This document shows, piece by piece, positions 15,619 to 49,970 of a stretch of DNA of 64,000 nucleotides (within the stretch, counting starts at the first letter, position 1; each line of letters opens with the position of its first letter). The position numbers and the translations under genes were made by a program. Location of the stretch: the NCBI RefSeq assembly GCF_904846675.1, contig NZ_CAJHBT010000004.1, positions 62,001-126,000 on the forward strand, read 5' to 3'. The notes below the pieces were generated by a model, which was given only the letters and a program-made list of their open reading frames with translations, made no database searches and was not told the DNA's origin. The stretch comes from Psychrobacter urativorans. Its GTDB lineage: Bacteria; Pseudomonadota; Gammaproteobacteria; Pseudomonadales; Moraxellaceae.

Positions 15619-18507
15619 CTACACTTTATCATCTTCTTCGCGGCGTAGACCGTCTTGGAATTTGGCTTTATTGATAGCATTCTTTTTTATTCGATTAGTT
15701 TCAGCGCCTGCTTTTGCCGCTTGTGATTCGGCATCGGCCTTGTTTTGGCCATGATTGTAGCTCATACGATCACCTAGGGTAGTTTCAGCATCACGGCTGC
15801 GATGATTAATAGCCTCTGCTCTGGGATGCGCCTCATTAAACTTGGTTTGCGACTTAACTTCTTGAGCGGTGTTTTGCTCATTGACCATTTCGACATCGCC
15901 ATCGGATTCGTAACCATGATCTGGATTGGCATCGCCACTAGCATCATCATTCGCCTGGTCATTAATCTGCGTACTATTTCTGACTTGGGCCTCGTTTTTT
16001 AGTTGCGCATAGTCAGTCAGTTTATGCACAGCGTTTTCTAAGCTATGAGGATTAAAACGCTCTTGCGCTTGCTGCAAGTGCTCATCGAACACATCCGTCA
16101 ATAACGAATCAAAACGTAGCGCGTTATAGTTGATAAGTGCTTCTGCCTCTTCTTCAGTAACGTCACCATTTTGACTGGCATAGACCACATGATCTTCGAA
16201 GGTTAAGCCCTCAAAGCTGTCTTTATGCTCGGCCTTTTTGAACTTCTGCCACAGCGGCTCAATCTCAAGCAAGGATTGATAAGCGTGTTCCATGCGTCCG
16301 GTAACATCGTCCGCTTCCGTGTTGTAATACACCATGGTTTTAAGATAGTCGCGGAACGGGTTGGCTTCAAAGTCATCCATAAAGGTGTCACCCAATTTGC
16401 GTTTGAGCTCATCACTGGCAGGCGTAAAGATACGACCACTAGGGAAAGTCACAAAACTGACCACACTGGCGGCCATACGATTGGGGAAGTTGGCAAAGAA
16501 GGATACAAATGCTTCTTGAATCGTATATAGGCTGTGCTGTAGCGCGACTTCGGCATGCAGGCGCTCAGCTTTTGATTTACTACCATTCTGGTAAAACTGC
16601 AAAATGGCACTGGCAATAAATAAGTGGCTGTGAATATCCGCTAAGCGCCCAGAAAGCATCTCTTTTCGCTTCAAATCACCAGCAAGTAAGCCCAAAGCCA
16701 TATCTGCTGTGAGCGCAAAGCTGGCACTTAAGCGGTTGATATGTTTGTAATAAGGTCGGGTAAAGCTATCGGCAAAGAGTGGCGCGTTGTTACTGCCGCC
16801 CATGTAACCGGCGACAAAAGCTTTGGCACCGCGATTAAAGGTATAACCTAGATGCTTGAAGAATAATTTATCAAACTGTTTAAGCGCGCCTTTTTTATCG
16901 TCACTTTGCAGGAGTTGTAGCTCATCGAAGAGATAAGGGTGACAGCGCATCGCACCTTGACCGAATATCATTAGTGAGCGCGTTAAAATGTTAGCGCCTT
17001 CAACTGTGATAGAGACTGGAATCGCTTGGTAAGGAATAGCTAAAAAGTTACGCGGGCCCGTTTGAATCGCTCGGCCGCCGACCACATCCATCCCGTCGTT
17101 GACGATTTCACGCATGGTTTCGGTGGCATAATATTTTGCCATGGCAGTCATGACCGAGGGTGTACCCCCTTCGTTAAGTCCGCAAGTGACTAGATGACGA
17201 AAGGCTTCTAACATATAAGTTTGGCTAGCAATACGGCTGGTAGCATCTTGTACGCCTTCGAACTTGCCAACTGAGATTTTAAATTGTTCACGTACCTTGG
17301 CAAATGCGCCAACTGATAAATAGCTCATACCACCGGCTGAGGTTGATAATGCGGGTAATGAGATACCGCGACCAACACCCAGACATTCCATCAGCATGCG
17401 CCAACCGCGTCCAGCGTTCTCAACGCCGCCGATAATATAATCTAACGGGATAAAGACATCGGTACCATCTACCGTGCCATTCATAAATGGCGAGCCGCTA
17501 GGGTAGTGGCGCGGGCCTATAATAACGCCTTCGTGACTAGCCGGTACTAAAGCACAAGTAATACCATAATCGGTTTTATTAACATCGCCCAATAGCGCTT
17601 CAGGGTCATGCATCTTAAAGGCTAGACCGACGACAGTAGCGATGGGCGCTAGCGTAATCCAGCGTTTAGAGAAATTCATACGCAGACCGAGCATCTCTTT
17701 ACCGTCATGGATACCGTAACAAACCACGCCAGTATCAGGAATCGCGCCTGCATCAGAGCCAGCTTCAGGACCCGTTAGACCAAAGCAAGGAATCTCTTTA
17801 CCAATGGCTAAACCTGGTAGCCAGCGCTTTTTTTGCGCCTCTGTACCGTAATGCATCAACAACTCACCAGGGCCTAGCGAGTTGGGAACCATACAGCTGA
17901 CGGCTGCTGTAGGCGAGCGGGAAGCAATTTTACTCATCACACGGCTTTGGGCATAAGAGGTGAATGCCAGACCGCCATATTCTTTGGGGATAATCAGACC
18001 CAAAAAGCCATTGTCTTTAATAAACTGCCATGCTTTTGGTGACAATTCTTTATCTTCGTGTTGAATTTGCCATTCATCAAGCATCGTGCAAAGCTCTTCT
18101 ACTTCATTATCAATAAAGCTTTGTTCCTCATCGGATAATTGCGGATAAGGGTAACTGGCAAACATTTTCCAGTCTGGATTTCCCATGAACAGCTCTTTTT
18201 CCCACCAGCTGGTACCGGCATCAAGCGCTTCACGTTCGGTGTCGCTCATACTTGGCATCGCACCGCCCAAAGCTTTATATACCGGCTTGGTAATGAGTAC
18301 TTTGCGAATGGGAGCTATAAGTAGCACTAAACATAGCAGTGCTATCGGGGCGCCTAAAATCAACGACCATGGACTGATAAAAGCGGTCACTAACACTGTG
18401 ATGATAGCAACAATACTGCCGGTGATACGCGAAAATGACTGTAAAAAGATGGCCAAAACGACGGCTAACTGAATGAGTACTGCCAAAATAAATAAGCCAA
18501 TCGCCAT
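15619..18507 (-). CDS. fadE: Acyl-CoA dehydrogenase FadE with C-terminal extension
   Basis: This 962-residue protein catalyses the first step of fatty-acid beta-oxidation, FAD-dependent alpha,beta-dehydrogenation of acyl-CoA. The first 65 residues contain two or three hydrophobic segments, as in E. coli FadE, suggesting membrane association. The core holds GFLGLIIPKEYGGL, CFGLTGPEAGSDAG (acyl-CoA and FAD contacts), GVGRGISLPALS, DVVGGRAIQTGPRNFLA and ISVTVEGANILTRSL-type motifs (here VSITVEGANILTRSLMIFGQ). E. coli FadE has 814 residues; the surplus is mainly a charged, low-complexity tail from about residue 830, rich in Asp, Asn, Gln and Ala. It is monocistronic and ends at a strong terminator. 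Confidence 0.93.
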   Translation of the reverse strand: MAIGLFILAVLIQLAVVLAIFLQSFSRITGSIVAIITVLVTAFISPWSLILGAPIALLCLVLLIAPIRKVLITKPVYKALGGAMPSMSDTEREALDAGTSWWEKELFMGNPDWKMFASYPYPQLSDEEQSFIDNEVEELCTMLDEWQIQHEDKELSPKAWQFIKDNGFLGLIIPKEYGGLAFTSYAQSRVMSKIASRSPTAAVSCMVPNSLGPGELLMHYGTEAQKKRWLPGLAIGKEIPCFGLTGPEAGSDAGAIPDTGVVCYGIHDGKEMLGLRMNFSKRWITLAPIATVVGLAFKMHDPEALLGDVNKTDYGITCALVPASHEGVIIGPRHYPSGSPFMNGTVDGTDVFIPLDYIIGGVENAGRGWRMLMECLGVGRGISLPALSTSAGGMSYLSVGAFAKVREQFKISVGKFEGVQDATSRIASQTYMLEAFRHLVTCGLNEGGTPSVMTAMAKYYATETMREIVNDGMDVVGGRAIQTGPRNFLAIPYQAIPVSITVEGANILTRSLMIFGQGAMRCHPYLFDELQLLQSDDKKGALKQFDKLFFKHLGYTFNRGAKAFVAGYMGGSNNAPLFADSFTRPYYKHINRLSASFALTADMALGLLAGDLKRKEMLSGRLADIHSHLFIASAILQFYQNGSKSKAERLHAEVALQHSLYTIQEAFVSFFANFPNRMAASVVSFVTFPSGRIFTPASDELKRKLGDTFMDDFEANPFRDYLKTMVYYNTEADDVTGRMEHAYQSLLEIEPLWQKFKKAEHKDSFEGLTFEDHVVYASQNGDVTEEEAEALINYNALRFDSLLTDVFDEHLQQAQERFNPHSLENAVHKLTDYAQLKNEAQVRNSTQINDQANDDASGDANPDHGYESDGDVEMVNEQNTAQEVKSQTKFNEAHPRAEAINHRSRDAETTLGDRMSYNHGQNKADAESQAAKAGAETNRIKKNAINKAKFQDGLRREEDDKV

Positions 18508-23061: not shown

Positions 23062-23883
23062 TTACTGAACAAATTGCGTCGGTAAAAAGAATGTCCTTGC
23101 ATCAGCCTGCTGACGTAATTCACCCAGCAAGGTTGGCATATCTTCGGTAGGGTCTTGGGTATTTATTAAATCGCTAAATACCTCATAGGCAACGGTAGTC
23201 ATTGCAATCACACTTTGTAGTAAATGCTCGATAATATACTCATCAATACCAACTGCATCGACATCGATGGCGTTTTTATAGCGTATCTCACCGTCATTGA
23301 CATCCATCTCTAGATTACCAATAAGCATGTCATAATTGACTTGGGTAATGAGTAGCATCGCCGCGCTCTGATGACTTTCCGGTATTAAAAATGGCAAAAT
23401 ACCGTAGACCGCGAGCAAGCTATTGCCTTCTTGAACTCGAAATAGATAACCACAATCTATTTGCTTATTTTTCATTCGTAAAGACAAGTGGTGCGATTGC
23501 TGACTGTCAGATGATTTTGGACGATAATAAGTATAGTGCCATTGTTTGTCCTGCAAATATTCTTTAAGGTAATTGACAATAGGCGTATCGTCATTGTTTT
23601 TAGAGGCATTGCTGTCAGCGGCAATGCTTTGAGCGTTCGTACTCTCCAAGTTATCGTCCTGAGTATCATTAGAATCCGCTAATTTAGCATCGTCAGCGCT
23701 AGCGCTATTAGCATGGTTTTTATTATCAGTATCAAGATGGCTATCTATATTATTTTCATCATAAATATTTACTTGCGGCGAACTTTTATACACATCTGTC
23801 CTATCAGCAACAGACTGCGGATCGGAAACAGACAATAGCCGTTTTATTTTTTGCCATAAGCTGCGTTTCTTGGTAAGACTCAT
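23062..23883 (-). CDS. YbjN-domain protein with acidic low-complexity N-terminus
   Basis: This is a 273-residue cytoplasmic protein. Residues of about 35-100 are low-complexity, rich in Asp, Asn, Ser and Ala. The C-terminal 160 residues fit the YbjN fold: LPFLIPESHQSAAMLLITQV, then NYDMLIGNLEMDVNDGEIRYKNAID, where the Gly-Asn/Glu-Met-Asp and GEIRY pattern is the family's hallmark. YbjN proteins resemble secretion chaperones in fold and affect motility and stress phenotypes in enterobacteria, but have no defined biochemical role. It lies 64 bp downstream of an unknown gene in the same direction, and is probably cotranscribed with it. Confidence 0.65.
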   Translation of the reverse strand: MSLTKKRSLWQKIKRLLSVSDPQSVADRTDVYKSSPQVNIYDENNIDSHLDTDNKNHANSASADDAKLADSNDTQDDNLESTNAQSIAADSNASKNNDDTPIVNYLKEYLQDKQWHYTYYRPKSSDSQQSHHLSLRMKNKQIDCGYLFRVQEGNSLLAVYGILPFLIPESHQSAAMLLITQVNYDMLIGNLEMDVNDGEIRYKNAIDVDAVGIDEYIIEHLLQSVIAMTTVAYEVFSDLINTQDPTEDMPTLLGELRQQADARTFFLPTQFVQ

Positions 23884-31773: not shown

Positions 31774-32544
31774 TTAGTCTTCGTATACCAAACCTTGGCC
31801 GATAGGGGTGGTGGCTTGAATCAGACCATCGCGAATACCTGCGACCTCTAATAAATGCCCTTGGTGTAATAAGGCGGCGCGGTGACAGAGCCTGCGAATG
31901 ACACTCATCTCATGGGTTACAATCACAATAGTAACGCCCAGCTGTTCGTTGATATCACGCAGACAAGTCAGTAAACTGCGGGTGGTTGCAGGGTCAAGCG
32001 CACTGGTTGGCTCATCAGCCAGTAATACTTTAGGACTGGGTGCAATGGCGCGAGCAATGCCGACACGCTGCTTTTGCCCGCCTGACAGCTGTGCAGGATA
32101 ATGGCCGGCGCGATCGATTAAATCAACAATCTCAAGACAGGCCATCACGCGCTTATGAATATCGCGATTAGGGTGACCAGAAACGGTCAAATTAAAAGCC
32201 ACATTATCGAATACTGTACGATTGGACATCAGATTAAATTGCTGAAAAATCATACCGATATTATGGCGGGCGATACGTAAGTCACGAGCAGAGAGTTTGG
32301 TTAAATCAACCCCATCAATGATGACCTGACCGCTATCAGGACGCTCAAGTAAATTAATCAGCCGGAGTAAGGTAGATTTTCCTGCGCCTGAATAGCCCAT
32401 TAAGCCAAAAATTTCACCTTGCTGCACAGACAGCGACGTCGGCTCAACAGCAGTGAACCAATGCGGTTTGCCGTCTTTGCCTTTTATCGATCTATCGCTT
32501 AAAAAGCTTTTGGTCACATCATTTAGAACGATCATGTCACTCAT
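31774..32544 (-). CDS. metN: Methionine ABC transporter ATP-binding protein MetN (without NIL domain)
   Basis: This 256-residue protein has Walker A GYSGAGKST (about residues 49-57), the signature LSGGQKQRVGIARAI and Walker B KVLLADEPTSALD. QFNLMSNRTVFDNVAFNL is typical of the methionine-importer ATPase. E. coli MetN has 343 residues, with a C-terminal NIL/C2 domain that senses methionine and inhibits transport. That domain is missing here, so feedback by trans-inhibition should differ. It is the first gene of the metNIQ operon. Confidence 0.9.
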   Translation of the reverse strand: MSDMIVLNDVTKSFLSDRSIKGKDGKPHWFTAVEPTSLSVQQGEIFGLMGYSGAGKSTLLRLINLLERPDSGQVIIDGVDLTKLSARDLRIARHNIGMIFQQFNLMSNRTVFDNVAFNLTVSGHPNRDIHKRVMACLEIVDLIDRAGHYPAQLSGGQKQRVGIARAIAPSPKVLLADEPTSALDPATTRSLLTCLRDINEQLGVTIVIVTHEMSVIRRLCHRAALLHQGHLLEVAGIRDGLIQATTPIGQGLVYED

Positions 32545-32920
32545 GGAATGCTCAAAATTTAATAAATGTTTTAGCGGTTATAAAAGTGCCGTAAGGTCAG
32601 CGCTGTTATTCACAGCGATCGACCGATAACACTATAATAAGGGGCGGTAATATAGCATATTATGCAGCGTTTTGGATATGCGAATCCATGACTGGCTAAT
32701 GCCGTTTAGTTGCATAAAAAGGGTGATTTTATTTGTGTGATGGCAAGTGAATTTTGTAAAAGTGCCAAAAAGGAGACCTTAAAAGAAGCCGCTAAAAGAC
32801 ATACTAAAAATAGGCTAAAAACAGTAGGCCATATAGGAAGAGTAAGATAGGAGCGTAAGCCGTAAGAAAAATAAATACCGTTAAAAATATCAGTGTCCGC
32901 TATATGCGTTCAGCAGCAGC
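32545..32920. other. 376-bp intergenic region between a histidine kinase gene and metN
   Basis: No gene is seen. The region contains the metN promoter and leader; a small hairpin CGCTG-ttattca-CAGCG lies near 32599. I found neither a recognisable SAM-riboswitch core nor a clear MetJ box. No strong terminator follows the kinase gene. Confidence 0.45.
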
Positions 32921-35062
32921 TTAGCTGCGTCTGTTATGGTCACGATAATTATAATGAGGGTCGTGTTTTACAGGCAGCACGATTAAGAATCGGGTATGGC
33001 CGTTGATAGTGTCAGTAGTAATATGACCTTGGTGGGCGTTAACTATCTGTGTTACTAAAGATAAGCCCAGTCCCGAGCCTTTTTTCTTTTGTTGTAGACG
33101 CACAAACGGACTAAAAATCTCTTCACGTTTATCTTCTGGAATACCAGACCCTTCATCGATCACTGCTAAAACTGCATAGTTGGGTAGCAGACGCACAGGG
33201 TCGGGTTTAGATTTTTTTAAATGCTTTTTAAATAAGCTCTCTTTACGCTGGGTAGTCGGTGCGTCATTATTATCAACGTCACTGCTATTTTTATTATTGG
33301 TATTAGTTTTGGTGTCAGCAGTTTTGCTCTTATCTTCCGTATCTATCTCTTGTGTTTGTAATGTGACTTCAACTCGTTCCTGAGAATCAGGTACTGCTCG
33401 CCAGCTGACCTTTTTGATTTTGTCAGTTAAATCAGAGGTAAGTTTATTATAATTAGAAAATAGTGAATCAGCATTGAGAGCAGGAGTTCTAAATGAGAGT
33501 GACTCATCGTTCTCATTGTTTAATGGCGGGTGTTGGGCATTCAACAAATCTTTATCTTCAGCATCAGCAATTAAATCCATTGCTGATATATCAATAGTCA
33601 TGCGACTATCAGCGTCACTGCTGTCATTAACCTCATCACTGTCATCAACAACAAGCGTCTCACCATTTCTATAAAGGGGCGGAGCCGGCAAGGTTATTGC
33701 CTGTTCTGTAGTGTTTGATTTGGGTTTACTGGTATTTTGAGCGTTATTGTTAGACGGTATAGTGATGCGCTGACCTTGTTCATCAACCTCATAATGCTCG
33801 CTATCAACAAGCGACTCATCATAATGGTTATAATCTGCACTATTATAATCCGCAAAACTGCGACAAACGACCGACTGTAATAGATAGTCCGGTACCGTAT
33901 CGGCTTCCTCTTTAGTTTGCACGCCATAAAGTAGGACGGTAACCGGAGGCTCACCATGCAACATCGCATTATTCAGTAAATTGCGAATTAGATGGGTCAA
34001 CATCAGCGGCTGACCTTCGATCGCGATATGCTCACCGATTAAGGTCACCTCGGAGTAATGTTGACGCTCTTGATTGACCAAGTCATATATATCCATACGC
34101 TCAATTTGCTGCAGCACATGGCCGGCATCCAAGCGGCTGACCAGCAAAATACTTTCAACCAAATCATTCAGACCGGATAAATCGCGATTGATGGCTTCAG
34201 CACGTTTGTCGAATTTAGCCTTGGTATTTGTTGGCATGCTACCTGCCAGCATGTCCATCATCTCAATCTGCAGGCGAATGCGAGTAATGGGGGTACGCAG
34301 CTCGTGTGAGGCATGGGCTAACAGTAAGTTATTGGCCTCAATAAGATGTTCGATTTTTTGGGCGGCTTGGTTAAATCCGCGCGCCAGTAATGCAATCTCG
34401 TCATTACCCTGTGCATTAACCCTTACTGTAAAGTCACCGTCACCGAGCTGAGTCATTTGGTGGCTCATCTGATTGATACGCCAAGTCATTGAGCGCGCAA
34501 TCCACCACAGTACGCCCGCCATAATAAGGAGGAGGAGTAGCGTACCGGTAAATAAGTTTAGGGCCGCAGATAGTACAGGCTTTTTTGGGGGTAGGCGTGA
34601 CTCATACAGTAGTGTGTAGCCAGTACTGCTATAGACCTGTGCTTGTTGGGTAGGAGGAGTATCAGAGAAAGAAGGAAAAACCCGTGTTAATAAAGACGGC
34701 ACTGCGGGCAGCACAGGCGACAAATCACTATTGTCCGTCTGCATCAGCAGTTGACCCTTACTATCATACAGACCCATTTTTGCTTGCAGTGATTCATCAA
34801 AAATATCGAAGCTTTTTTTGACTACTGCCAGCATGAAGCGTGACTGTAGACGGTTACTCTTACTGACAGAAACATTTAGCTCATGTAAAAATGGATCGAT
34901 TTGCCCCAAAATTTGGGTTGCAACCACCTCTGAGCGTATGCCGGCATCTTTATCATGGACAAGCTGAGTCAAGAGTACCATGGCTACCGCAAATAAGATA
35001 AGTGCCAGCATGACGCTGGCAAATAATCTAGCAAAGACGGAGTGAAAACCGAGCTGCTGCAT
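32921..35062 (-). CDS. Sensor histidine kinase with a ~250-residue insert splitting the ATPase domain
   Basis: This 713-residue kinase has an N-terminal membrane helix (about 10-33), a periplasmic sensor region (34-165), a second helix (168-188), HAMP (about 185-240) and the HisKA phosphoacceptor H253 in ASHELRTPITRIRLQ. The ATPase N-box is RNLLNNAMLHG (N361-N365). About 250 residues of low-complexity, acidic Asn/Asp/Ser/Thr-rich sequence (roughly 381-628) then precede the G1 box VIDEGSGIPEDKREEIF (D636) and the G2 box KGSGLGLSLV. In typical kinases only about 30-40 residues separate N and G1. The catalytic motifs are all intact, so the enzyme may be active. It lies 122 bp after its response regulator gene. 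Confidence 0.9.
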   Translation of the reverse strand: MQQLGFHSVFARLFASVMLALILFAVAMVLLTQLVHDKDAGIRSEVVATQILGQIDPFLHELNVSVSKSNRLQSRFMLAVVKKSFDIFDESLQAKMGLYDSKGQLLMQTDNSDLSPVLPAVPSLLTRVFPSFSDTPPTQQAQVYSSTGYTLLYESRLPPKKPVLSAALNLFTGTLLLLLIMAGVLWWIARSMTWRINQMSHQMTQLGDGDFTVRVNAQGNDEIALLARGFNQAAQKIEHLIEANNLLLAHASHELRTPITRIRLQIEMMDMLAGSMPTNTKAKFDKRAEAINRDLSGLNDLVESILLVSRLDAGHVLQQIERMDIYDLVNQERQHYSEVTLIGEHIAIEGQPLMLTHLIRNLLNNAMLHGEPPVTVLLYGVQTKEEADTVPDYLLQSVVCRSFADYNSADYNHYDESLVDSEHYEVDEQGQRITIPSNNNAQNTSKPKSNTTEQAITLPAPPLYRNGETLVVDDSDEVNDSSDADSRMTIDISAMDLIADAEDKDLLNAQHPPLNNENDESLSFRTPALNADSLFSNYNKLTSDLTDKIKKVSWRAVPDSQERVEVTLQTQEIDTEDKSKTADTKTNTNNKNSSDVDNNDAPTTQRKESLFKKHLKKSKPDPVRLLPNYAVLAVIDEGSGIPEDKREEIFSPFVRLQQKKKGSGLGLSLVTQIVNAHQGHITTDTINGHTRFLIVLPVKHDPHYNYRDHNRRS

Positions 35063-35184
35063 TACATGGTCTCAGGTATTAGATAATCAGTTATCATATG
35101 CTCAGAATGGATGATTCATAACCATTGGTATGCTTGCTATAACGACAGTTGCGTATCAATTTTATAGTTGATAGAAGTAGACTG

Positions 35185-35907
35185 CTAAACTTGGTCGGTC
35201 GCAAATTGATAACCCACACCACGCACAGTAATAATACGTTTTGGCTGACGCGGATTGTCTTCGATCAACGCACGCAAACGTGAGATATGGACATCGATAG
35301 CGCGATCAATATTGTCCGAGCTGTCATCATTTGGCATCGCTTGCCATAACTGCTCACGATTGAGAACTTTGCCAGAATGAGTGGCAAAGTAATGCAGCAA
35401 TTGGAACTGATGGGTGGTTAGGCGTACAGATTGTTCATCAATGGTTACTTCATGGCTGTCAGGGAACACGCTCAGACGACCAAAGGTCAAGCTGTCTGAC
35501 TGACTGTCAGCTTGGTTAGGCTGCTCATGGCGACGGATTACTGAGCGAATACGCGCGAGTAACTCGCGCGGCTCAAAAGGCTTAGAGATATAATCATCAG
35601 CGCCCATCTCTAATCCTAAAACGCGGTCTGTGGTGTCGCCCTTAGCCGTCAACATGATAATGGGGACTTTATTAGTAATATGGTTTTTATTGCCGCGAAT
35701 CTTTTGGCAAACTTGCATGCCATCCATATCTGGCAGCATTAAGTCAAGCACGACCAAATCGATATCGCGCTCTTTGGTGTCCAAAATGTCCAACCCTTCT
35801 TGACCAAGGCCAGCATGATGCACGTCATAATAGTTCATGGTCAGATAATCACTGATCAATTCAGCTAAATCTGGATCATCTTCAATCAATAGAATCTGCT
35901 TACTCAT
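35185..35907 (-). CDS. OmpR/PhoB-family response regulator
   Basis: I chose ATG 35907 (240 residues), placed after AAGGA; an upstream start would add seven residues. The receiver domain (about 1-118) contains IEDDPDLAE, the phosphoacceptor in LVVLDLMLPDMDG (about D55) and MLTAKGDTTD with a conserved K in ISKPFEPRELLARI. The C-terminal winged helix (about 140-240) contains LTTHQFQLLHYFATHSGKVLN-type residues and DVHISRLRALIEDNPRQPKRI, closing with VRGVGYQFA. It pairs with the downstream kinase. The upstream adaptor lipoprotein gene is the likeliest local target. Confidence 0.94.
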   Translation of the reverse strand: MSKQILLIEDDPDLAELISDYLTMNYYDVHHAGLGQEGLDILDTKERDIDLVVLDLMLPDMDGMQVCQKIRGNKNHITNKVPIIMLTAKGDTTDRVLGLEMGADDYISKPFEPRELLARIRSVIRRHEQPNQADSQSDSLTFGRLSVFPDSHEVTIDEQSVRLTTHQFQLLHYFATHSGKVLNREQLWQAMPNDDSSDNIDRAIDVHISRLRALIEDNPRQPKRIITVRGVGYQFATDQV

Positions 35908-36158
35908 GGGGTGTCCTTTAGTTATCATTATTACTCATTTAAGATTTTAATTGGCATTATTGTTTAATTGAGCGTTATAAGCTATTTGAGCATTATAAAA
36001 ACACTGCTAAAAGTACTATCAATTATAAGTCTTTTTAAGATATTTAATGCTTCAAGTTTTGATGGTTTAAGACAGTTCTTATTCTGCCTAACTATAGTAG
36101 TCGCAAACAAGACACCCTTTGTTAATATTTCTACACAATGTAACGCACGTCCTATAAA

Positions 36159-37439
36159 TTATGAAACAATCACTTTTTTGCCAGCAGATTCAAGAGGCAA
36201 ATCCGCCAAACAAATCAAGCTGTCATTAGTAATACCTGCAATTAGATATTGTTCAGTGCTAGGGTTATATTCAATAACTTCTACCGGCTGGCGGGTGAGG
36301 CGTTGGTTTTGTTTGATAATCCAAACGTTAGCCATAAGTTGCGATAAAGGCCGATATGGGGGTTTTTGCAGTTCAGTCAAGTCGACATCATGGATACTGC
36401 GTTTAGGTACGATGGTGCCCACTTTTATCTGTCCATAATTAACGCGGCCGATGACGGCCATTTTAGGTTGGAGGATGCCGCGACTGGCCTCGTTTTTGAT
36501 AACGTGGACGTAGACTAATAATTGCGCAGATTGACTATCTGCTAGCAACTTGCTGACCTGTCCGGTGAATTTTTCGGTCAAGCCTTCTGTAGTAAAGTTG
36601 ACCGTTTGCCCAACGGATAACTGTGGTTCAGCCTGAATAGGCAGCGTGGCAATAAAGCGTAAATCACTATCATCTTCTAAATGCAACAGTTTATCACCCG
36701 TATTTATCTGTTGCGCGGTCTCTATATAGAGGTCACTCACTTTTCCTGAAATGCTGGCGCGTATGGTTATCAATTGATCGGAATTTGCTGCTACAACAGC
36801 GCTATCGTCTGCCTGCACTTCTTCTGTTGTCGCTACTTCGCTAAGCTCTTTAGTTAGTTGGTCATTAGTACTTATAGTTGTATCTGCTTTATTACTCACT
36901 GGCGTGGCGACTGCTTGTTCGATAGGGACGCTATTTGTACTAATTTTTGATTGCTGATTGGTCGTATTTTTGGCTGCTTGATTGTTAATACCATTTTTTC
37001 GGGCCGTAGCCTCTTTTGTAGTAATGTCCGTAACAGCATTTTTAACTGTTTGGCGTTGAACAATGAGTAACGGTGAGCCTTTTTCTACCCACTGACCTTT
37101 AGTGACTAATATTTGTTTTATTTGCAAGTCCTGCGCGGCGGTTAGCCGAGCCTGCTTGATAGGTTCAATATCACCTTGTAGTCCAAGACTGGGCTGATAG
37201 CGTGACGGCTTGACGTCCAAAATATATTCTGGCGCCATGGTGACGCTGCCAGCACTGATGATAATGGGCGGGTCTTCAGCAGTGGTTGAGGTTGCAGTAG
37301 GCGCTGGCGGTTGACAGGCGGTCAGTAATCCTGTCATGGGTACAGTGGTTAGTAATAACGAACAGCGTAATAAAGTGCTTAATAAAACACATCGTGGAGC
37401 ATAATTTTTATTGCACACCGAAAATATTAGAGCCATCAT
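36159..37439 (-). CDS. Orphan periplasmic adaptor (HlyD/RND-type membrane fusion) lipoprotein
   Basis: This 426-residue protein has a signal peptide with a probable lipobox LLTAC (about Cys42). The first lipoyl/barrel strand region GLQGDIEPIKQARLTAAQDLQIKQI and VTKGQWVEKGSPLLIV is followed by a Thr/Asn/Lys-rich low-complexity stretch (about residues 130-225) where RND adaptors normally have a helical hairpin. A second lipoyl half follows: ITIRASISGKVSDLYIETAQQINTGDKLL, then a beta-barrel and membrane-proximal domain. No RND pump or outer-membrane channel is adjacent. It is upstream of a two-component system, 251 bp away, and may be its target. Confidence 0.75.
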   Translation of the reverse strand: MMALIFSVCNKNYAPRCVLLSTLLRCSLLLTTVPMTGLLTACQPPAPTATSTTAEDPPIIISAGSVTMAPEYILDVKPSRYQPSLGLQGDIEPIKQARLTAAQDLQIKQILVTKGQWVEKGSPLLIVQRQTVKNAVTDITTKEATARKNGINNQAAKNTTNQQSKISTNSVPIEQAVATPVSNKADTTISTNDQLTKELSEVATTEEVQADDSAVVAANSDQLITIRASISGKVSDLYIETAQQINTGDKLLHLEDDSDLRFIATLPIQAEPQLSVGQTVNFTTEGLTEKFTGQVSKLLADSQSAQLLVYVHVIKNEASRGILQPKMAVIGRVNYGQIKVGTIVPKRSIHDVDLTELQKPPYRPLSQLMANVWIIKQNQRLTRQPVEVIEYNPSTEQYLIAGITNDSLICLADLPLESAGKKVIVS

Positions 37440-42677: not shown

Positions 42678-45600
42678 ATGAAGAACCAGCCTAATGAAAT
42701 GGTGACGCTTGAGTGGCTGTTGCCACTATTCAATCAGCAATTATCGCAGTTGTCTGATGGCTGGCAAGTAGACGCTGATACTGTCGATCCAGAAGACGCT
42801 ACTAATTTTAAAAATACTACTAATCTTAAAAACCCTATTAGTTTTGAAGTTATGGAGCACGATTACCATCAGCTTAGCGGCGCTTTGATCATGGCCAATC
42901 TGCCACGCTTAGCAGAGTTAGCAGCTAAATTGAGCTTGTTAGCAGAAATCGGTTATCAGGACGTTCTTAATGATGAACAGTATAAAAAAGCCCGATTTGC
43001 GCATCAATTATTGCAATATGAGCTGACTCAATATGTGCAAATAGGCAGCTATCGTGGTTCTTTAATCATCAAAACTATTGAGGTTCTCGCGCGGATAATA
43101 ACCAAAACTACAACAACGTCTGAACAAATGGAGGATTTGCAAACTCAGGCTTTACTCTCTAATGACTCTCCCACTCATACTGTTACTCATTATCCTGCTA
43201 TCCCCTACCAAGAAGTGACCGTAGCCACTCCTACAGTATTAACGGTCATCCCTCTACAAGCTCCGCAATACCAGCAACTACTAACCGTTTGGCGTCATCA
43301 AGCACAAAGGCTACTGGCTGAAAATAACAATCAGCCGTCAATATTAGTATTACTTGAAAAGGTCAGTCATTATTTATGGCAGAGTACCAAGAGTAGCCTG
43401 CAGCAGCGACTGTGGTGTATGACTGAACTGTGGTTAAATAATTTGGCGCAAAACAAGCGACCGTTACCTATACATTACACCGCGTTATTAGCAAGTTTAG
43501 AGCGAGTTATCGATGCCTATAGCTTACAAGCTGGGCAAGATATTAGCTCACTAACCGTCCAAGATACGGCTCAGTCGGATTCTAGCGCTGACTTACAAGA
43601 CTCTAATTCTTTGTCTCACGATTTTTTAGCCCCGCATTTACTTGAAAGTCTGATCGCCGATATTTACATTCAGTTGAGCGGGTTGACGCACATCAGTGCT
43701 CACGCGCAGACCTTACTAAGCCACTTACCAGAATCTACTGATGCAAACTTACGTTTTTTGCCGCGTATTTTAAGTGAGATTGAGACGGTCATTTTTGCTT
43801 TAGATCAACCGCAAACATTGTTAGAGCCGCTACAAAAGATAAAAAAACAGCTAAGCATGCGTGGCTGGACATTCTACGAGTCACAAGTTAGTCGAATTAT
43901 AGTTGATTTGATCGATAGTGCTGAATCGGAGTCTGTTTTTGCTCAAATGCAGTGGCAGATTGAGCATCAACTACAAGAGCTCTATAGCGCGATATATGAT
44001 ATCGAGCAATCTATACGTAACAAGATTGGTGATGGCATGTCTGTTGCATCCACCAACAGCGCGGCTGTTTCTGAACAAGAAATAACAACTCAGCAGTCTG
44101 GGCCCATAGCGCCAGATGATGGTGCGTTGCGCCAGTTGCGTATCGCCGTTGAAGATGTCAAACATCACTTTAATGATTATGTCCAGCGTCAACAGCCATA
44201 TTTACTGCCTCGAGCTGAAACATTCGCTGAGATTGGTGATGCTTTTGATGATATGGGACTAACTGCTGCACGGGAAGTTACCAATAAGATCAGCTTGCTA
44301 TTCGCTCAAATCGAGGCATGTGATATTAGCGCACTAGGTTGGGGTTTGACTCAAGCTTTGGCTGATGGACTGTCCTCAATTGAGCTGCTGTTAGATTATT
44401 TAGCACAGCAAGTATTCGACCAACCATTATTGACGCATTCTGCTGCCTATATTGATAAGGCTGAACAGTTATTAACAGAACTTATTTATAACCCTATTGA
44501 TGACGCGGCAGCTACGGATAGCCAACCTACTGATGTGTCTTCTAAAGCGTCCGCTCATGATGTGGTGCGTTACGATGATGACGGTGAAATTGGCGTTGAT
44601 CTTAATGTTACGGCTGTCGTTTCTGCTGATACAAATAATGATGCCTATTATGGTAACGCCAACAATGTAGACAACGCGACCGATGCTAAATATTTTCATA
44701 GTGCCAGTAATAGTAATAATGAAGCGCTAGATAGCACGATTGTAGAAAGTGCAGCGCTACAAGTGGCGCGAACCCAATTGCAGCCTGATAGCGTTGAGGT
44801 GGATGAGGAAATACGAGACATCTTTATCGAAGAGGCTAATGAGATTATTAGCGATTTAGAAGACTTTTTGCCTATATGGGCGCAAGACTCACAAGACTTA
44901 ACGCCTTTAACAGAAGTATGTCGTGGTTTTCATGTGCTTAAGGGTGCAGGGCGCACGGTTGGTGCCTTTAGCATTAGCGAGATGGCCTGGGCGATTGAAA
45001 GCCTACTGAACCGTATTCTGGATAAAACTTTATCCGTTACCGATCAAGTAGTCGATTTAGTATTACAGACTACCCAACACCTACCAATTTTAGTAGCGGA
45101 TTTTACTGCACAGCGGCCACCAAGTACTGATCCGGCTCTTACTATTCTACAAAGTAGTAATACAGTGGCAGGCCAACCACTCGATTACGGTATGAGCCCG
45201 CCTGCCGACCCAGATATTGAGCAACAGTCAGATAGTATAGATATAGACGCCACAAGTGCCGATATTAACACTGATGACAATGTTAGTAATGATGCTAATG
45301 GTAGTATTACCGATAGCGCTGACAATACGAATAGCGTTGCAGATGACGATGAAGTGGATGGTTATCATAATAATAACCTCGATACGCGACCAATTACAGA
45401 TGCGCAGTTACCGGCTATACTGACGCCATTTATAGCAGTGGCTGAACAACTGCCATCGGATACACAAGATGCTGACCCTGATATCAAAAAGATATTTATT
45501 GAAGAAGCAGAAGAGGTCTTAGCAGAAATTACACCGTTATGTCGACTTTGGAAGCAAGCGCCAGAAACCTTAACAGTGCTACCTGACATTCGCCGCGGCT

Positions 45601-48600
45601 TTCATACCCTAAAAGGTTCAGGGCGCATGGTTGGCGCTAATTATACCGGTGAGCTGGCATGGGCAATAGAAGATATGCTCAACCGTATTTTAGAGCAAGC
45701 TATCAAGGTCACTCCAGATATTGTCCAGTTGACTGATGATGTTTTAGCCGCCTATCCAGAATTAATGAATACCTTTGCAGAAGAAGAGGATGAAGCTAAT
45801 AATCCAAAAATTTATTCTGCCATGGTACCGTTATGGGTAGCTTGTGCACAGGTCTATAGTAAACAATATGGCGATGCGTTCAGTTATCCTGACGTACGCT
45901 CACAGTGGTTGTTACAGTCGCCCCCCAAACAGACAGATGGCCCTTCTACAAAAGCCATAACAATGGCCGCTGAAATGGCTAATGATGCCAAAGCTAGTAT
46001 AGAGAACATGTTACAGACCTTTCATACTGTGAATGAAATTATGGCAGATGCTCCTGCAGTAATGCCTAATCAAAGTAGAGAGGAACAAGAATTTTGTAAA
46101 ATTTTCGTTGAAGAGGCACAGACGTTATTAAAAAAAATTAATGACTTCGTCAGCGATAATGAATACCAATCCCAAATTGAGGTGAGTGATGAAGTCGTTC
46201 GCGCGTTTCATACTTTACGCGCCGCCTCTGGCTCAAGCGCCCTTGCAGCTATTAGTGAGGTCAGCGCTGCGATAGAACAAAGTTTAGAGCAATTTCAACA
46301 ACAAGATATCATGATGAATGCTCAGCATCTACAAGCACTCACTAAGTCAACGGCCCTAATAGAAGATTATTTAGTTGCTTATAAAGAAAGTGTACAACAG
46401 CAAAGTCAGCCTGTGGAGACGGACGCAAAAAGTCAGCAGGACTTGGCATCATTACAAGCGATGCTGGGTGAAATAGAAGTCACATCTGTCGGTCGTGATA
46501 GTAAGCTTAGTGTGGCACAGCTCCTTGACTGCGATATCGATGGACTACTAGATGCCGATTGCCAATTACGCACAGCATTTAGCAGATCTGACCTTGAGCA
46601 AATACAAGTTTATGTACGACAACAGTGCGCACAAATTGCACGCTTGGCGTCAAAAACGGCTGACTCTTCCAAGTTTACCTTGATACTCGGTGCCCTAAAC
46701 GAGGCTTATAGTTATATTACTGAGCATCCTAAAAGTGCACATAGCGAGCTTATACAAGCGCGCCTACTTGCTGGTCATGCGCAATTGGTCGACTTATTTG
46801 ATGCCTTGGCTGGCAGCATGTCTTTGAAAGTTGATAAGCAAGTGGTTGCAGATTTGCAGGCGCTGTCTACTTCCGATACTGATATTGAAACCAATATCAA
46901 GAATACTTTGTCCAATGACTTGATAAACGAGAAAGTAGATACAGCTAATAAAAATAGCGTTGAAGTCCTGCAATCTATCTTAACGCACCCTGTCGAGAGT
47001 ATACAAGCGGACGAGCTCCAGCTTGAAGCAATTGATACCGATATTGAGCTGCTAGAAATTTTTTTAGAAGAGGCGCAAGAGTTGGATAGCGCCATTGCGC
47101 AAACGTTCAGCAAATGGCGCGCTGATATTGATAGTATAGTGACATTGAAGATATTGCAGCGGTATTTGCACACCATTAAAGGTGGCGCGCGCATGGCAGG
47201 TATTCATAGTATTGGCGATTTGACCCATGAAGCCGAAAGCATCTACGAAGCTTTCGTTGAAGCGCGATTACAACCAACCCCGCAGTGGTTGACCATTATG
47301 CAAATGGTTCAAGACAGCTTGTCTTTACAGATTGACTATGTGGTGCGTTACCAAGAGTCATTTTTTGCACATGAATTAATCGCTCAGCTACAACAATTCG
47401 AAAAAACGGACCAGTTACCAGTAACGGTCACATTGGTATTACCAGCGCTACAAAATCATATGAGCGGTGATGATAGCGAGACCGTAATAGATGGTGGTAT
47501 CGCTATCGATAAGGCTTCTAAGATTGTGAGTCTTGACAGTCTTATTGCCCTGTCATGGGTTGATGGTTTGCCTGACCCTGATATTTTAGAGGTGTTCTTA
47601 GAAGAGGCTGATGAGCTGATTGCCAGCAGTACTAAGTACTTGCAGTTATTCTTGAGCAACATCAGCGATATTGTGGCTCTACAAGCGTTACAGCGTGATT
47701 TGCATACCATCAAAGGTGGCGCACGTATGGTGGCTGCCAATGGTATTGCAGATTTGGCGCATGAAATGGAAACTGTCTATGAAGAGTTGGCTATTCGCCG
47801 CCGCCCTGCGACCAAAATGGTTGCGCAATTACTGGTCACTTGTCATGATTGGTTGGCCGATGCCGTATTTATCCTTAAACATCACCTTAACCCCCCGATA
47901 CCTTCTGCATTAGTAGCTGCCTTACAGCAGTTTAGCAAAAACCCTGATAGTCTAAAAAGTGTTCCTGTTGAGTCCCTACAATTGCAGCTTAATGCTATTT
48001 TTGCGGCGAAGACCAAGCGTGAGTCAGTGCGCGGCGTTGATGATATCAGTGTAATGCCATCGATGGCGGGTAGCTTTGTTGAGCAAGAGCAAAGCAGCAG
48101 CAGTAACGAGATGATTCGTATCTCAGGCAACTTGATTGAGCACATGATTAACCTATCAGGTGAGTCGGCGATTAACCGTGCGCGTATTGATATGGGTATG
48201 AGCAGTCTGACCAATAGTATTGAAGAGATGGGTACGACGGTACAGCGTCTAGCAGACCAATTGCGCCGGATGGAGAGTGAACTTGAGCAGCAGATTTTAT
48301 CGCAAATCTATGATGAAGAGTTGCTAAAAAATGAAAGCTTTGATCCACTGGAGATGGATCAATATTCCTCTCTAAATCAGTTATCGAAATCTTTAACAGA
48401 GTCGGCTTCCGACTTAATTGATATTAATGGAACTTTGTTAGAGAAAACCCGTGATAGCGAAAGCTTGTTATTACAATTATCACGGACGCAAACGGAACTG
48501 CAAGATGGGTTGATGAACTCACGGATGGTGCCTTTCGAGCGTTTGACACCGCGTCTGGAGCGCATTGTACGGCAGACAGCCAATGAGCTTAATAAGATTG

Positions 48601-49970
48601 TAGAGCTTACGATTGTCAATGCGGATGATGAGATGGACAGAACCATTCTTGAGCGCATTACGTCACCACTTGAGCACATGCTACGAAATGCGGTGGATCA
48701 CGGTATTGAAAGCCCGCAGGTCCGTCTTAATGCTGGCAAGAGTCGCAGTGGTCACATCACGTTAGAGGTTTTGCGTGAAGGTAGTGAAGTGGTCATTAAT
48801 TTGACTGATGATGGTCGCGGTATTAATGTTGATGCCGTACGCCGAAAGGCGGTCTCTCAAGGTCTTATTGATGCTCATGATAATAGATTGTCTGAGCTTG
48901 ATGTCATGCAATATATCTTTAATGCCGGTTTGACTACCAGCCAGAAAGTCACGCAAATCTCAGGGCGCGGAGTAGGGATGGATGTGGTCATCAGCGAGGT
49001 CCGTCAGTTAGGCGGCGTGGTGACAGTAACTTCTGAGCCTGGGCAAGGGTCGCGCTTTACCATGCGCTTACCGCTCACTGTGGCGGTGTCCGATGCTTTA
49101 GTAGTACGAGCAGCGGATAGTTATTATGCCATTCCTTTAGTGCAGATTGAGCGGGTGGTGCGCGTCAACCCTGAGAAACTCTACGATTACTATCAGTCGG
49201 GTCAGGCCACTATGCGTATCGAAGAGGCGGATTACCGTGTTCGTTATTTAAATGATATTTTAACGGGCAATAAGCTCAATGAGCTGATTGTTAGTACCAA
49301 TACTAGCTTGCCCGTTATCATTGTCAAAAACCGCGCAGGACAAAGTTTGGCGCTACAAGTCGATCAAATCGCCGGCTCACGTATCGAGGTGGTGGTAAAA
49401 CCGCTTGGCAAGCAGCTGTCGCATTTAGCAGGTATCTCAGCGGCAACTATTATGGGTGATGGTTCAGTAATGCTGATTTTAGATTTAATAGCGTTATTAC
49501 GTAATGTTCCAGCACACAAAGATAACGCGCAAATGGTAGCTTCGCAAGCTCGTATTAATGATGTGCCCCAAGTAGGCCATCAGCCAACGGTACTAGTGGT
49601 TGATGACTCAGTGACGGTTCGAAAGGTCACCTCGCGCTTCTTAGAGCGCCAAGGAATCACAGCAGTGGTGGCAAAAGATGGCATAGATGCCATTGAAATA
49701 TTGCAAGAGTTGACGCCTGACTTGATTCTATTGGATATCGAGATGCCGCGAATGGATGGCTTCGAGGTAGCAACCCAAGTCCGATTTGATAAGCGTCTAC
49801 ACCACATACCTATTATTATGATTACTTCAAGAACGGGTGAGAAGCATCGTGAGCGTGCCTTTGAGATTGGCGTCAACGACTATATGGGTAAACCTTTCCA
49901 AGAGAAGGAGTTGTTACGTAAAATCCAGGATCTATTGGACTCAAAAATGAGTATCACTCATAATGAATAA
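42678..49970 (+). CDS. chpA: Hybrid chemosensory histidine kinase ChpA with multiple Hpt domains
   Basis: This 2430-residue protein is the kinase of the Pil-Chp twitching pathway. The Hpt-like domains carry phosphoacceptor histidines at about H752 (FHVLKGAGR), H976 (FHTLKGSGR), H1178 (FHTLRAASG, degenerate), H1498 (LHTIKGGAR) and H1676 (LHTIKGGAR). A CheA-type dimerisation region follows, then the ATPase with the N-box HMLRNAVDHGIESP (about 2003) and G boxes NLTDDGRGIN and GRGVGMDVV, a CheW domain (from about 2137), and a receiver domain with LVVDDSVTV (about 2307) and LLDIEMPRMDG (phosphoacceptor about D2352). P. aeruginosa ChpA has the same overall order. The gene follows pilJ and the ATG is preceded by AGGATAATC. 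Confidence 0.96.
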   Translation: MKNQPNEMVTLEWLLPLFNQQLSQLSDGWQVDADTVDPEDATNFKNTTNLKNPISFEVMEHDYHQLSGALIMANLPRLAELAAKLSLLAEIGYQDVLNDEQYKKARFAHQLLQYELTQYVQIGSYRGSLIIKTIEVLARIITKTTTTSEQMEDLQTQALLSNDSPTHTVTHYPAIPYQEVTVATPTVLTVIPLQAPQYQQLLTVWRHQAQRLLAENNNQPSILVLLEKVSHYLWQSTKSSLQQRLWCMTELWLNNLAQNKRPLPIHYTALLASLERVIDAYSLQAGQDISSLTVQDTAQSDSSADLQDSNSLSHDFLAPHLLESLIADIYIQLSGLTHISAHAQTLLSHLPESTDANLRFLPRILSEIETVIFALDQPQTLLEPLQKIKKQLSMRGWTFYESQVSRIIVDLIDSAESESVFAQMQWQIEHQLQELYSAIYDIEQSIRNKIGDGMSVASTNSAAVSEQEITTQQSGPIAPDDGALRQLRIAVEDVKHHFNDYVQRQQPYLLPRAETFAEIGDAFDDMGLTAAREVTNKISLLFAQIEACDISALGWGLTQALADGLSSIELLLDYLAQQVFDQPLLTHSAAYIDKAEQLLTELIYNPIDDAAATDSQPTDVSSKASAHDVVRYDDDGEIGVDLNVTAVVSADTNNDAYYGNANNVDNATDAKYFHSASNSNNEALDSTIVESAALQVARTQLQPDSVEVDEEIRDIFIEEANEIISDLEDFLPIWAQDSQDLTPLTEVCRGFHVLKGAGRTVGAFSISEMAWAIESLLNRILDKTLSVTDQVVDLVLQTTQHLPILVADFTAQRPPSTDPALTILQSSNTVAGQPLDYGMSPPADPDIEQQSDSIDIDATSADINTDDNVSNDANGSITDSADNTNSVADDDEVDGYHNNNLDTRPITDAQLPAILTPFIAVAEQLPSDTQDADPDIKKIFIEEAEEVLAEITPLCRLWKQAPETLTVLPDIRRGFHTLKGSGRMVGANYTGELAWAIEDMLNRILEQAIKVTPDIVQLTDDVLAAYPELMNTFAEEEDEANNPKIYSAMVPLWVACAQVYSKQYGDAFSYPDVRSQWLLQSPPKQTDGPSTKAITMAAEMANDAKASIENMLQTFHTVNEIMADAPAVMPNQSREEQEFCKIFVEEAQTLLKKINDFVSDNEYQSQIEVSDEVVRAFHTLRAASGSSALAAISEVSAAIEQSLEQFQQQDIMMNAQHLQALTKSTALIEDYLVAYKESVQQQSQPVETDAKSQQDLASLQAMLGEIEVTSVGRDSKLSVAQLLDCDIDGLLDADCQLRTAFSRSDLEQIQVYVRQQCAQIARLASKTADSSKFTLILGALNEAYSYITEHPKSAHSELIQARLLAGHAQLVDLFDALAGSMSLKVDKQVVADLQALSTSDTDIETNIKNTLSNDLINEKVDTANKNSVEVLQSILTHPVESIQADELQLEAIDTDIELLEIFLEEAQELDSAIAQTFSKWRADIDSIVTLKILQRYLHTIKGGARMAGIHSIGDLTHEAESIYEAFVEARLQPTPQWLTIMQMVQDSLSLQIDYVVRYQESFFAHELIAQLQQFEKTDQLPVTVTLVLPALQNHMSGDDSETVIDGGIAIDKASKIVSLDSLIALSWVDGLPDPDILEVFLEEADELIASSTKYLQLFLSNISDIVALQALQRDLHTIKGGARMVAANGIADLAHEMETVYEELAIRRRPATKMVAQLLVTCHDWLADAVFILKHHLNPPIPSALVAALQQFSKNPDSLKSVPVESLQLQLNAIFAAKTKRESVRGVDDISVMPSMAGSFVEQEQSSSSNEMIRISGNLIEHMINLSGESAINRARIDMGMSSLTNSIEEMGTTVQRLADQLRRMESELEQQILSQIYDEELLKNESFDPLEMDQYSSLNQLSKSLTESASDLIDINGTLLEKTRDSESLLLQLSRTQTELQDGLMNSRMVPFERLTPRLERIVRQTANELNKIVELTIVNADDEMDRTILERITSPLEHMLRNAVDHGIESPQVRLNAGKSRSGHITLEVLREGSEVVINLTDDGRGINVDAVRRKAVSQGLIDAHDNRLSELDVMQYIFNAGLTTSQKVTQISGRGVGMDVVISEVRQLGGVVTVTSEPGQGSRFTMRLPLTVAVSDALVVRAADSYYAIPLVQIERVVRVNPEKLYDYYQSGQATMRIEEADYRVRYLNDILTGNKLNELIVSTNTSLPVIIVKNRAGQSLALQVDQIAGSRIEVVVKPLGKQLSHLAGISAATIMGDGSVMLILDLIALLRNVPAHKDNAQMVASQARINDVPQVGHQPTVLVVDDSVTVRKVTSRFLERQGITAVVAKDGIDAIEILQELTPDLILLDIEMPRMDGFEVATQVRFDKRLHHIPIIMITSRTGEKHRERAFEIGVNDYMGKPFQEKELLRKIQDLLDSKMSITHNE

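Follow-up and report, generated by a model that had tools for sequence, protein, structure and literature searches.

A long, mostly disordered insert within the ATPase domain of a sensor histidine kinase of Psychrobacter and its relatives

Results

A sensor kinase with a split ATPase domain

The window, i.e., the whole stretch of 64,000 nucleotides of Psychrobacter urativorans DNA that was analysed, contains at 32921..35062 on the (-) strand a gene for a sensor histidine kinase of 713 aa, with an ATG start and a frame that is open throughout. The order of its parts is a TM helix, an extracytoplasmic sensor region, a second TM helix, HAMP, HisKA and HATPase_c; the sensor region and the TM helices were assigned from our own reading of the sequence together with the long helices of the predicted model (residues 9-67 and 164-203). 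Pfam matched HAMP at residues 187-238 and HisKA at 244-314. The HATPase_c match was confined to the second part of a split domain (residues 627-699, profile positions 35-110 of 111); this case shows how a profile search can overlook part of such a domain. The catalytic motifs and the phospho-acceptor H253, described as intact in the preliminary description, were all located: the H-box HELRTP at 253, the N-box at 361, G1 (DEGSGI) at 636, the F box at 650 and G2 (GSGLGL) at 662. The sequence carries what characterises a HisKA-type sensor kinase, i.e., HAMP, HisKA with a phospho-acceptor His, and HATPase_c with N, G1, F and G2 boxes.

Upstream of the kinase, at 35185..35928 on the (-) strand, lies a response regulator of the OmpR/PhoB type (247 aa; Response_reg and Trans_reg_C), and the two adjoining genes form an OmpR-type two-component pair. 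The regulator stood directly before the kinase in 10 of the 10 neighbourhoods that we read, with identities of 87-98% in eight from Psychrobacter and Moraxella and 76-78% in two from the genus g7, which may be the Faucicola / Moraxella osloensis group. It scored 215.3 bits against the OmpR equivalog NF007005, below the cut-off of 331 bits.

Next to the regulator is a gene for an HlyD/RND-type adaptor (36159-37439, (-) strand), so that the kinase lies after the regulator and the adaptor. Residues 133-216 of the adaptor form a biased stretch rich in S, T, N and D between its two lipoyl-like parts, a region that usually holds a helical hairpin. No pump gene stands beside the adaptor in the window; the kinase has MetNIQ-like genes downstream and, on its opposite flank, a pilG-like chemosensory cluster (these names are our own reading of the sequence). 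An adaptor relative was present in 6/10 neighbourhoods; in P. pasteurii (L231) and P. lutiphocae (L228), none was found in the interval from the pilG-like gene to the regulator. In one g7 locus (L079), an RND-type pump ORF lies directly upstream of the regulator and covers 913 aa before the stretch ends; a piece of a large RND-type ORF is likewise upstream in a second (L097). Both of these ORFs reach the end of the stretch examined, and an adaptor may lie farther out. Because adaptor relatives or an RND-type ORF neighbour the regulator, there are hints that the regulator-kinase pair may descend from an efflux operon.

Position and composition of the insert

The ATPase domain had been described as split by an insert at residues 381-628, with about 265 residues between the N-box and G1. 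We confirmed an insert of 248 aa there (33179..33922, (-) strand), located in the beta-turn that links the G1 strand to the strand following the N-box, and mostly disordered by pLDDT; the gap measured 275 residues, close to the earlier figure. Among other kinases of the family, this spacing was 28-34 in 19/22 and 50-70 in 3/22, as surveyed in 32 scanned loci (L002-L008, L053-L077) that yielded 22 distinct spacings, the rest being repeats or lacking a motif match. The wider spacings were 70 (L077), 54 (L002, (-) strand) and 50 (L065, (+) strand). The beta-turn that holds the insert seems to be an insertion hot spot in kinases of the family. The genome of the window has 14 HATPase_c matches, and that of the present kinase alone starts past profile position 10; five other genomes of the phylum gave 133 matches, none of which did so.

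The insert had also been called low-complexity. Its composition is indeed biased, but it is not repetitive: Tandem Repeats Finder reported none, and a tandem-repeat expansion was rejected. Residue entropy was 3.95 bits for Psychrobacter inserts versus 4.07 bits for the core (93 of 94 Psychrobacter rows). GC3 was 0.339 in the insert, 0.349 in the C-terminal part that follows and 0.489 in the N-terminal part. A biased polar stretch occurs in 5 of the 49 long ORFs of the window, including the kinase and the adjoining adaptor; the others are at 23062-23883 (-) (residues 27-130), 42678-49970 (+) (residues 812-910) and 15619-18507 (-) (residues 829-896).

The basic patch FKKHLKKSKP, noted earlier near the end of the insert, corresponds to residues 611-620. 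The last 30 residues of the insert were net basic in 120/120 orthologues, and the insert without them was net acidic in 117/120 (Psychrobacter 93/94, Moraxella 19/21, g7 5/5). A pattern of a hydrophobic and two basic residues was found within the last 35 insert residues in 120/120 orthologues, versus 123/495 windows farther upstream in the insert.

Predicted structure

We examined two AlphaFold models, both weak overall, and used their pLDDT and secondary structure as evidence. The full-length model had a mean pLDDT of 60.8 and a pTM of 0.38. In it, strands 374-381 and 629-636 flank the insert, which is mostly below 50 pLDDT past its first 20 residues; residues 461-470 form a hairpin (mean pLDDT 77), and a weak helix spans 531-554. 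Part of the ATP lid (651-665) was also below 50. The model of residues 312-713 (mean pLDDT 65.6, pTM 0.54) showed the same flanking strands, with pLDDT 88 for the hairpin block 462-471 and 38-63 for most other blocks of the insert.

Foldseek matched the whole model to histidine kinases, and the whole chain superposed poorly; the comparison was made domain by domain instead. Against the CA domain of ThkA (3a0t), the full model gave Z 16.0 and rmsd 2.0 with 139 of 152 residues aligned, and the 312-713 model gave Z 15.4 and rmsd 2.6 with 139 aligned. The ATPase core, whose ability to fold around the insert had been raised as a question, is thus predicted to form the Bergerat fold in both models. 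The placement of the insert at the ATP-lid side was not supported. The lid is the segment between G1 and G2 (about 642-661); in both models, the insert bridges strands 374-381 and 629-636 and so emerges where the G1 strand begins, the length of one strand away from G1. It would thus lie at the far end of that strand from G1 and the lid, a siting that we infer from the order of the strands rather than from coordinates.

Occurrence and length across relatives

The kinase gene was found in 100/100 Psychrobacter genomes searched, with best E values of 1.1e-108 or lower. Among 80 relatives listed, 79 were named Psychrobacter, with 52-79% identity over the best segment, and one was Moraxella oblonga. 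In the family search, the kinase matched at E<=1e-30 in 92/199 genomes and 3/16 genera, namely Psychrobacter, Moraxella (g10; 21 genomes) and g7 (5 genomes); in at least one g7 genome (G120), neither the kinase nor the regulator had a close relative. A scan of the order at E<=1e-24 yielded 9/293 genomes and 2/118 genera, all Psychrobacter or Moraxella; g7 was unmatched there, either because no g7 genome was drawn or because the one drawn does not have the gene, as in G120. In 12 other Moraxellaceae genera, the nearest kinases had 28-34% identity in the part of the first 380 residues that could be matched; each of them shares a contig with a close-by regulator that is 41-45% identical to the present one. 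We take these kinases to be probable paralogues, and where their motif spacing is readable, it is mostly normal. A thirteenth genus, represented by a 68% complete genome (G114), gave no kinase match at E<=1e-12.

We measured the insert in 120 distinct orthologues; three Psychrobacter genomes in which the kinase frame is broken (G057, G059 and G076; loci L146, L132 and L152), through decay or sequencing error, were excluded. The preliminary description had suggested asking whether the insert is conserved in position and length. Position was the same in 120/120 orthologues of three genera; length was not conserved and spanned a more than six-fold range, from 47 to 302 residues. It was 112-302 in Psychrobacter (n=94, median 247), 47-106 in Moraxella (n=21, median 61) and 91-116 in g7 (n=5, median 107). 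No orthologue without the insert was present among the 120. In a tree built on the insert-free core (78 rows), basal Psychrobacter (11 rows) had inserts of 112-207 residues, Moraxella (21 rows) 47-106, and the larger Psychrobacter clade (41 rows) 149-302, with at least 200 in 35/41. Psychrobacter was not one clade in this tree (2 changes), and the basal group joined Moraxella with support of 94/84. Insert length is a trait inherited clade by clade, following descent on the core tree. We looked for close relatives that lack the insert together with a recent expansion in one strain, and found no such combination: the insert is old and lengthening, not an expansion in one strain. A single-strain artefact was likewise ruled out by the presence of the insert across Psychrobacter, Moraxella and g7 genomes.

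Selection on the insert

The claim that selection keeps the frame open was borne out, the selection being purifying. Over 130 Psychrobacter pairs (core pS 0.02-0.45), the insert had a median dN/dS of 0.345 against 0.013 for the core, and its value was below 1 in 130/130 pairs. Core pN/pS was 0.03. Indels were far more frequent in the insert: of the gap columns among the 34 nearest pairs, 254 fell there and 1 fell in the core.

Purifying selection in the insert is concentrated in four islands. Island 1 (residues 381-414; 33821..33922, (-) strand; pN/pS 0.154) continues the strand and then forms short helices, and its A387 and P391 were invariant in a 30-sequence alignment. Island 2 (residues 458-468, LPAPPLYRNGE; 33659..33691, (-) strand; pN/pS 0.069) coincides with the predicted beta-hairpin 463-470. 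Island 3 (residues 533-558; 33389..33466, (-) strand; pN/pS 0.147) has a weakly predicted helix and ends in IKKVSWRAVP, with Trp554. Island 4 (residues 606-628; 33179..33247, (-) strand; pN/pS 0.066) is a hydrophobic-basic foot, RKESLFKKHLKKSKPDPVRLLPN, that adjoins the G1 strand, and the hydrophobic-plus-basic pattern was found there in all three genera. The stretches between the islands had pN/pS of 0.42-0.48. The islands were first chosen from the same alignment as their rates; therefore, we used a half-split test as an independent check, in which 78 long-insert sequences were divided, one half serving to set the islands and the remaining half to test them. Over four random splits, the held-out half gave 0.077-0.141 in the islands versus 0.412-0.461 elsewhere in the insert.

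When the alignments were inspected by eye, islands 1 and 4 could be matched in each of the three genera. Islands 2 and 3 are a feature of most of the larger Psychrobacter clade and were not seen in the rows of Moraxella, g7, basal Psychrobacter or the P. pygoscelis-like sequences. Since they are absent outside most of the larger Psychrobacter clade, any function of islands 2 and 3 would be clade-specific.

Discussion

A possible docking or regulatory arm

We give about an even chance to the reading that the protein is a working, lineage-specific EnvZ/RstB-like sensor kinase of the ordinary class that carries a tethered docking or regulatory arm. One beta-turn of the Bergerat-fold ATPase would have been turned into a tethered disordered arm. 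The arm would take no part in catalysis, because it appears to exit the ATPase sheet at the end lying opposite G1 and the lid; instead, it may act as a docking or regulatory element. Its contact sites would be the conserved hydrophobic-basic foot and, specific to Psychrobacter, the hairpin and the Trp-containing islands, and the stretches between islands would serve as spacer, drifting in length and sequence. The most likely partner would be the cognate response regulator or, with the acidic arm set against the basic foot, a different region of the kinase itself. The hairpin at 463-470, predicted in two separate models with fair to high confidence, favours this reading. So do the constant position of the insert in 120/120 orthologues, its clade-wise length, the purifying selection on it, the islands upheld on held-out halves, the basic foot with its hydrophobic-plus-basic pattern beside an acidic remainder, and the match of the predicted core to ThkA; the WalK tail described below sets a precedent for a disordered kinase segment that binds its own regulator. 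Weighing against it are the overall weakness of the models, the lack of a clear amphipathic helix in the foot and the restriction of islands 2 and 3 to one clade.

It is quite possible, if somewhat doubtful, that the insert is instead tolerated filler. In that case, insertions would be accepted by a beta-turn that lies on the outer edge of the domain, and the loop would have drifted longer in Psychrobacter; the residual constraint would go no further than keeping the loop soluble, preventing its charges from doing harm and letting its two feet fit the fold. Indels far commoner than in the core (254 versus 1 gap columns in the 34 nearest pairs) are what such drift would leave, as are pN/pS of 0.42-0.48 between islands, smaller insertions at the same turn in 3/22 other kinases of the family (N-box-to-G1 spacing 50-70) and similar biased stretches in four others of the 49 long ORFs of the window, the adjoining adaptor included. 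However, filler does not readily account for islands with pN/pS of 0.07-0.15 that were reproduced on held-out halves, or for a basic foot in 120/120 orthologues of three genera. Nor would it lead us to expect a hairpin predicted far from both feet in two models, or the lack of any insert-free orthologue among the 120 measured.

Starting again from the docking or regulatory arm, a bolder version, which we regard as unlikely, is an electrostatic latch that would provide a second, cytoplasmic input: the acidic disordered arm and a partner would compete with each other for the basic foot next to the G1 strand. If so, ionic strength, temperature or a cytoplasmic binder would influence kinase output without the periplasmic sensor, and the growth of the arm in Psychrobacter would serve to tune the latch for cold or salty habitats.

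The basic foot might also touch the acidic inner membrane and fix the position of the ATPase domain, and we think this quite improbable. The hydrophobic-plus-basic pattern of the foot in 120/120 orthologues and the two long N-terminal hydrophobic helices of the kinase (our own reading of the model) would suit membrane contact. However, amphipathicity did not exceed that of shuffled sequences at p<0.05 in 93/94 Psychrobacter and 5/5 g7 inserts, with 4/21 Moraxella passing, and the foot would sit on the ATPase domain, beyond HAMP and the helix bundle. An amphipathic membrane helix at the foot was rejected; the median z against shuffles was 0.02 in Psychrobacter, -0.57 in g7 and 1.27 in Moraxella. 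A mobile or selfish element (intein or intron) or a grafted folded domain, which the length of the insert and its location within a conserved domain might bring to mind, deserves very little credence, as Pfam gave no family at E up to 5 for 247 of the 248 insert residues, Rfam none above the gathering score in 32500-36200 and the genome no second copy at E up to 10, and as the insert is predicted to be mostly disordered, resembles the following C-terminal part in GC3 (0.339 and 0.349) and varies in length with its feet in common.

The usual view is that histidine kinases are tuned in their sensor, HAMP and linker regions and that the ATPase domain is near-invariant. In the lineage studied here, a disordered arm within the ATPase domain has been retained and extended, and the remaining protein hardly changes (core pN/pS 0.03). 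With lengths of 47-302 residues, this single gene family provides a natural series that offers a test bed for disordered insertions in a signalling enzyme. The openings of the abstracts in the literature that we consulted describe no such insert, and a description may exist in print.

Comparison with known systems

The kinase resembles the EnvZ/RstB class in its domain order, its H, N, G1, F and G2 motifs and its OmpR-like partner. The best NCBIfam models were EnvZ (132.7 bits) and RstB (129.4 bits), both scores lying far below the cut-offs of the respective equivalogs (415 bits for NF007004 and 478 bits for NF007898), and the best PDB sequence match was the EnvZ chimera 4cti. It differs from the class in its 248-residue insert, other kinases of the family mostly having 28-34 residues between the N-box and G1. 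The Moraxellaceae kinases at L077, L002 (-) and L065 (+) share an insertion at the same beta-turn; however, they have about 20-40 extra residues compared with about 245 in the present kinase and, by our own reading, are non-orthologues.

MesR of Moraxella catarrhalis (Joslin et al. 2015) is named as a near system, and its sameness with the present one is putative. The M. catarrhalis systems named in the part of PMC3699543 available to us are PhoBR and NarXL, not the present pair. The disordered segment treated in the accessible part of PMC11043171 belongs to a regulator, not a kinase, and what was available of PMC12733681 concerns the GHKL lid in general.

The C-terminal tail of WalK of Streptococcus mutans is disordered and conserved, binds its own regulator and tunes phosphotransfer, as far as the portion of PMC9087282 at hand describes it. 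That tail has 18 residues and is C-terminal, whereas the present insert is internal and 47-302 residues long. A C-terminal tail with a Trp amid acidic residues, as in WalK, was not found in the present kinase; W554 lies in the internal insert, within IKKVSWRAVP, after basic residues. On the same portion of PMC9087282, the WalK tail and the present insert are nevertheless alike in being disordered, acidic and partly conserved, in being carried on the ATPase domain and in having a conserved Trp.
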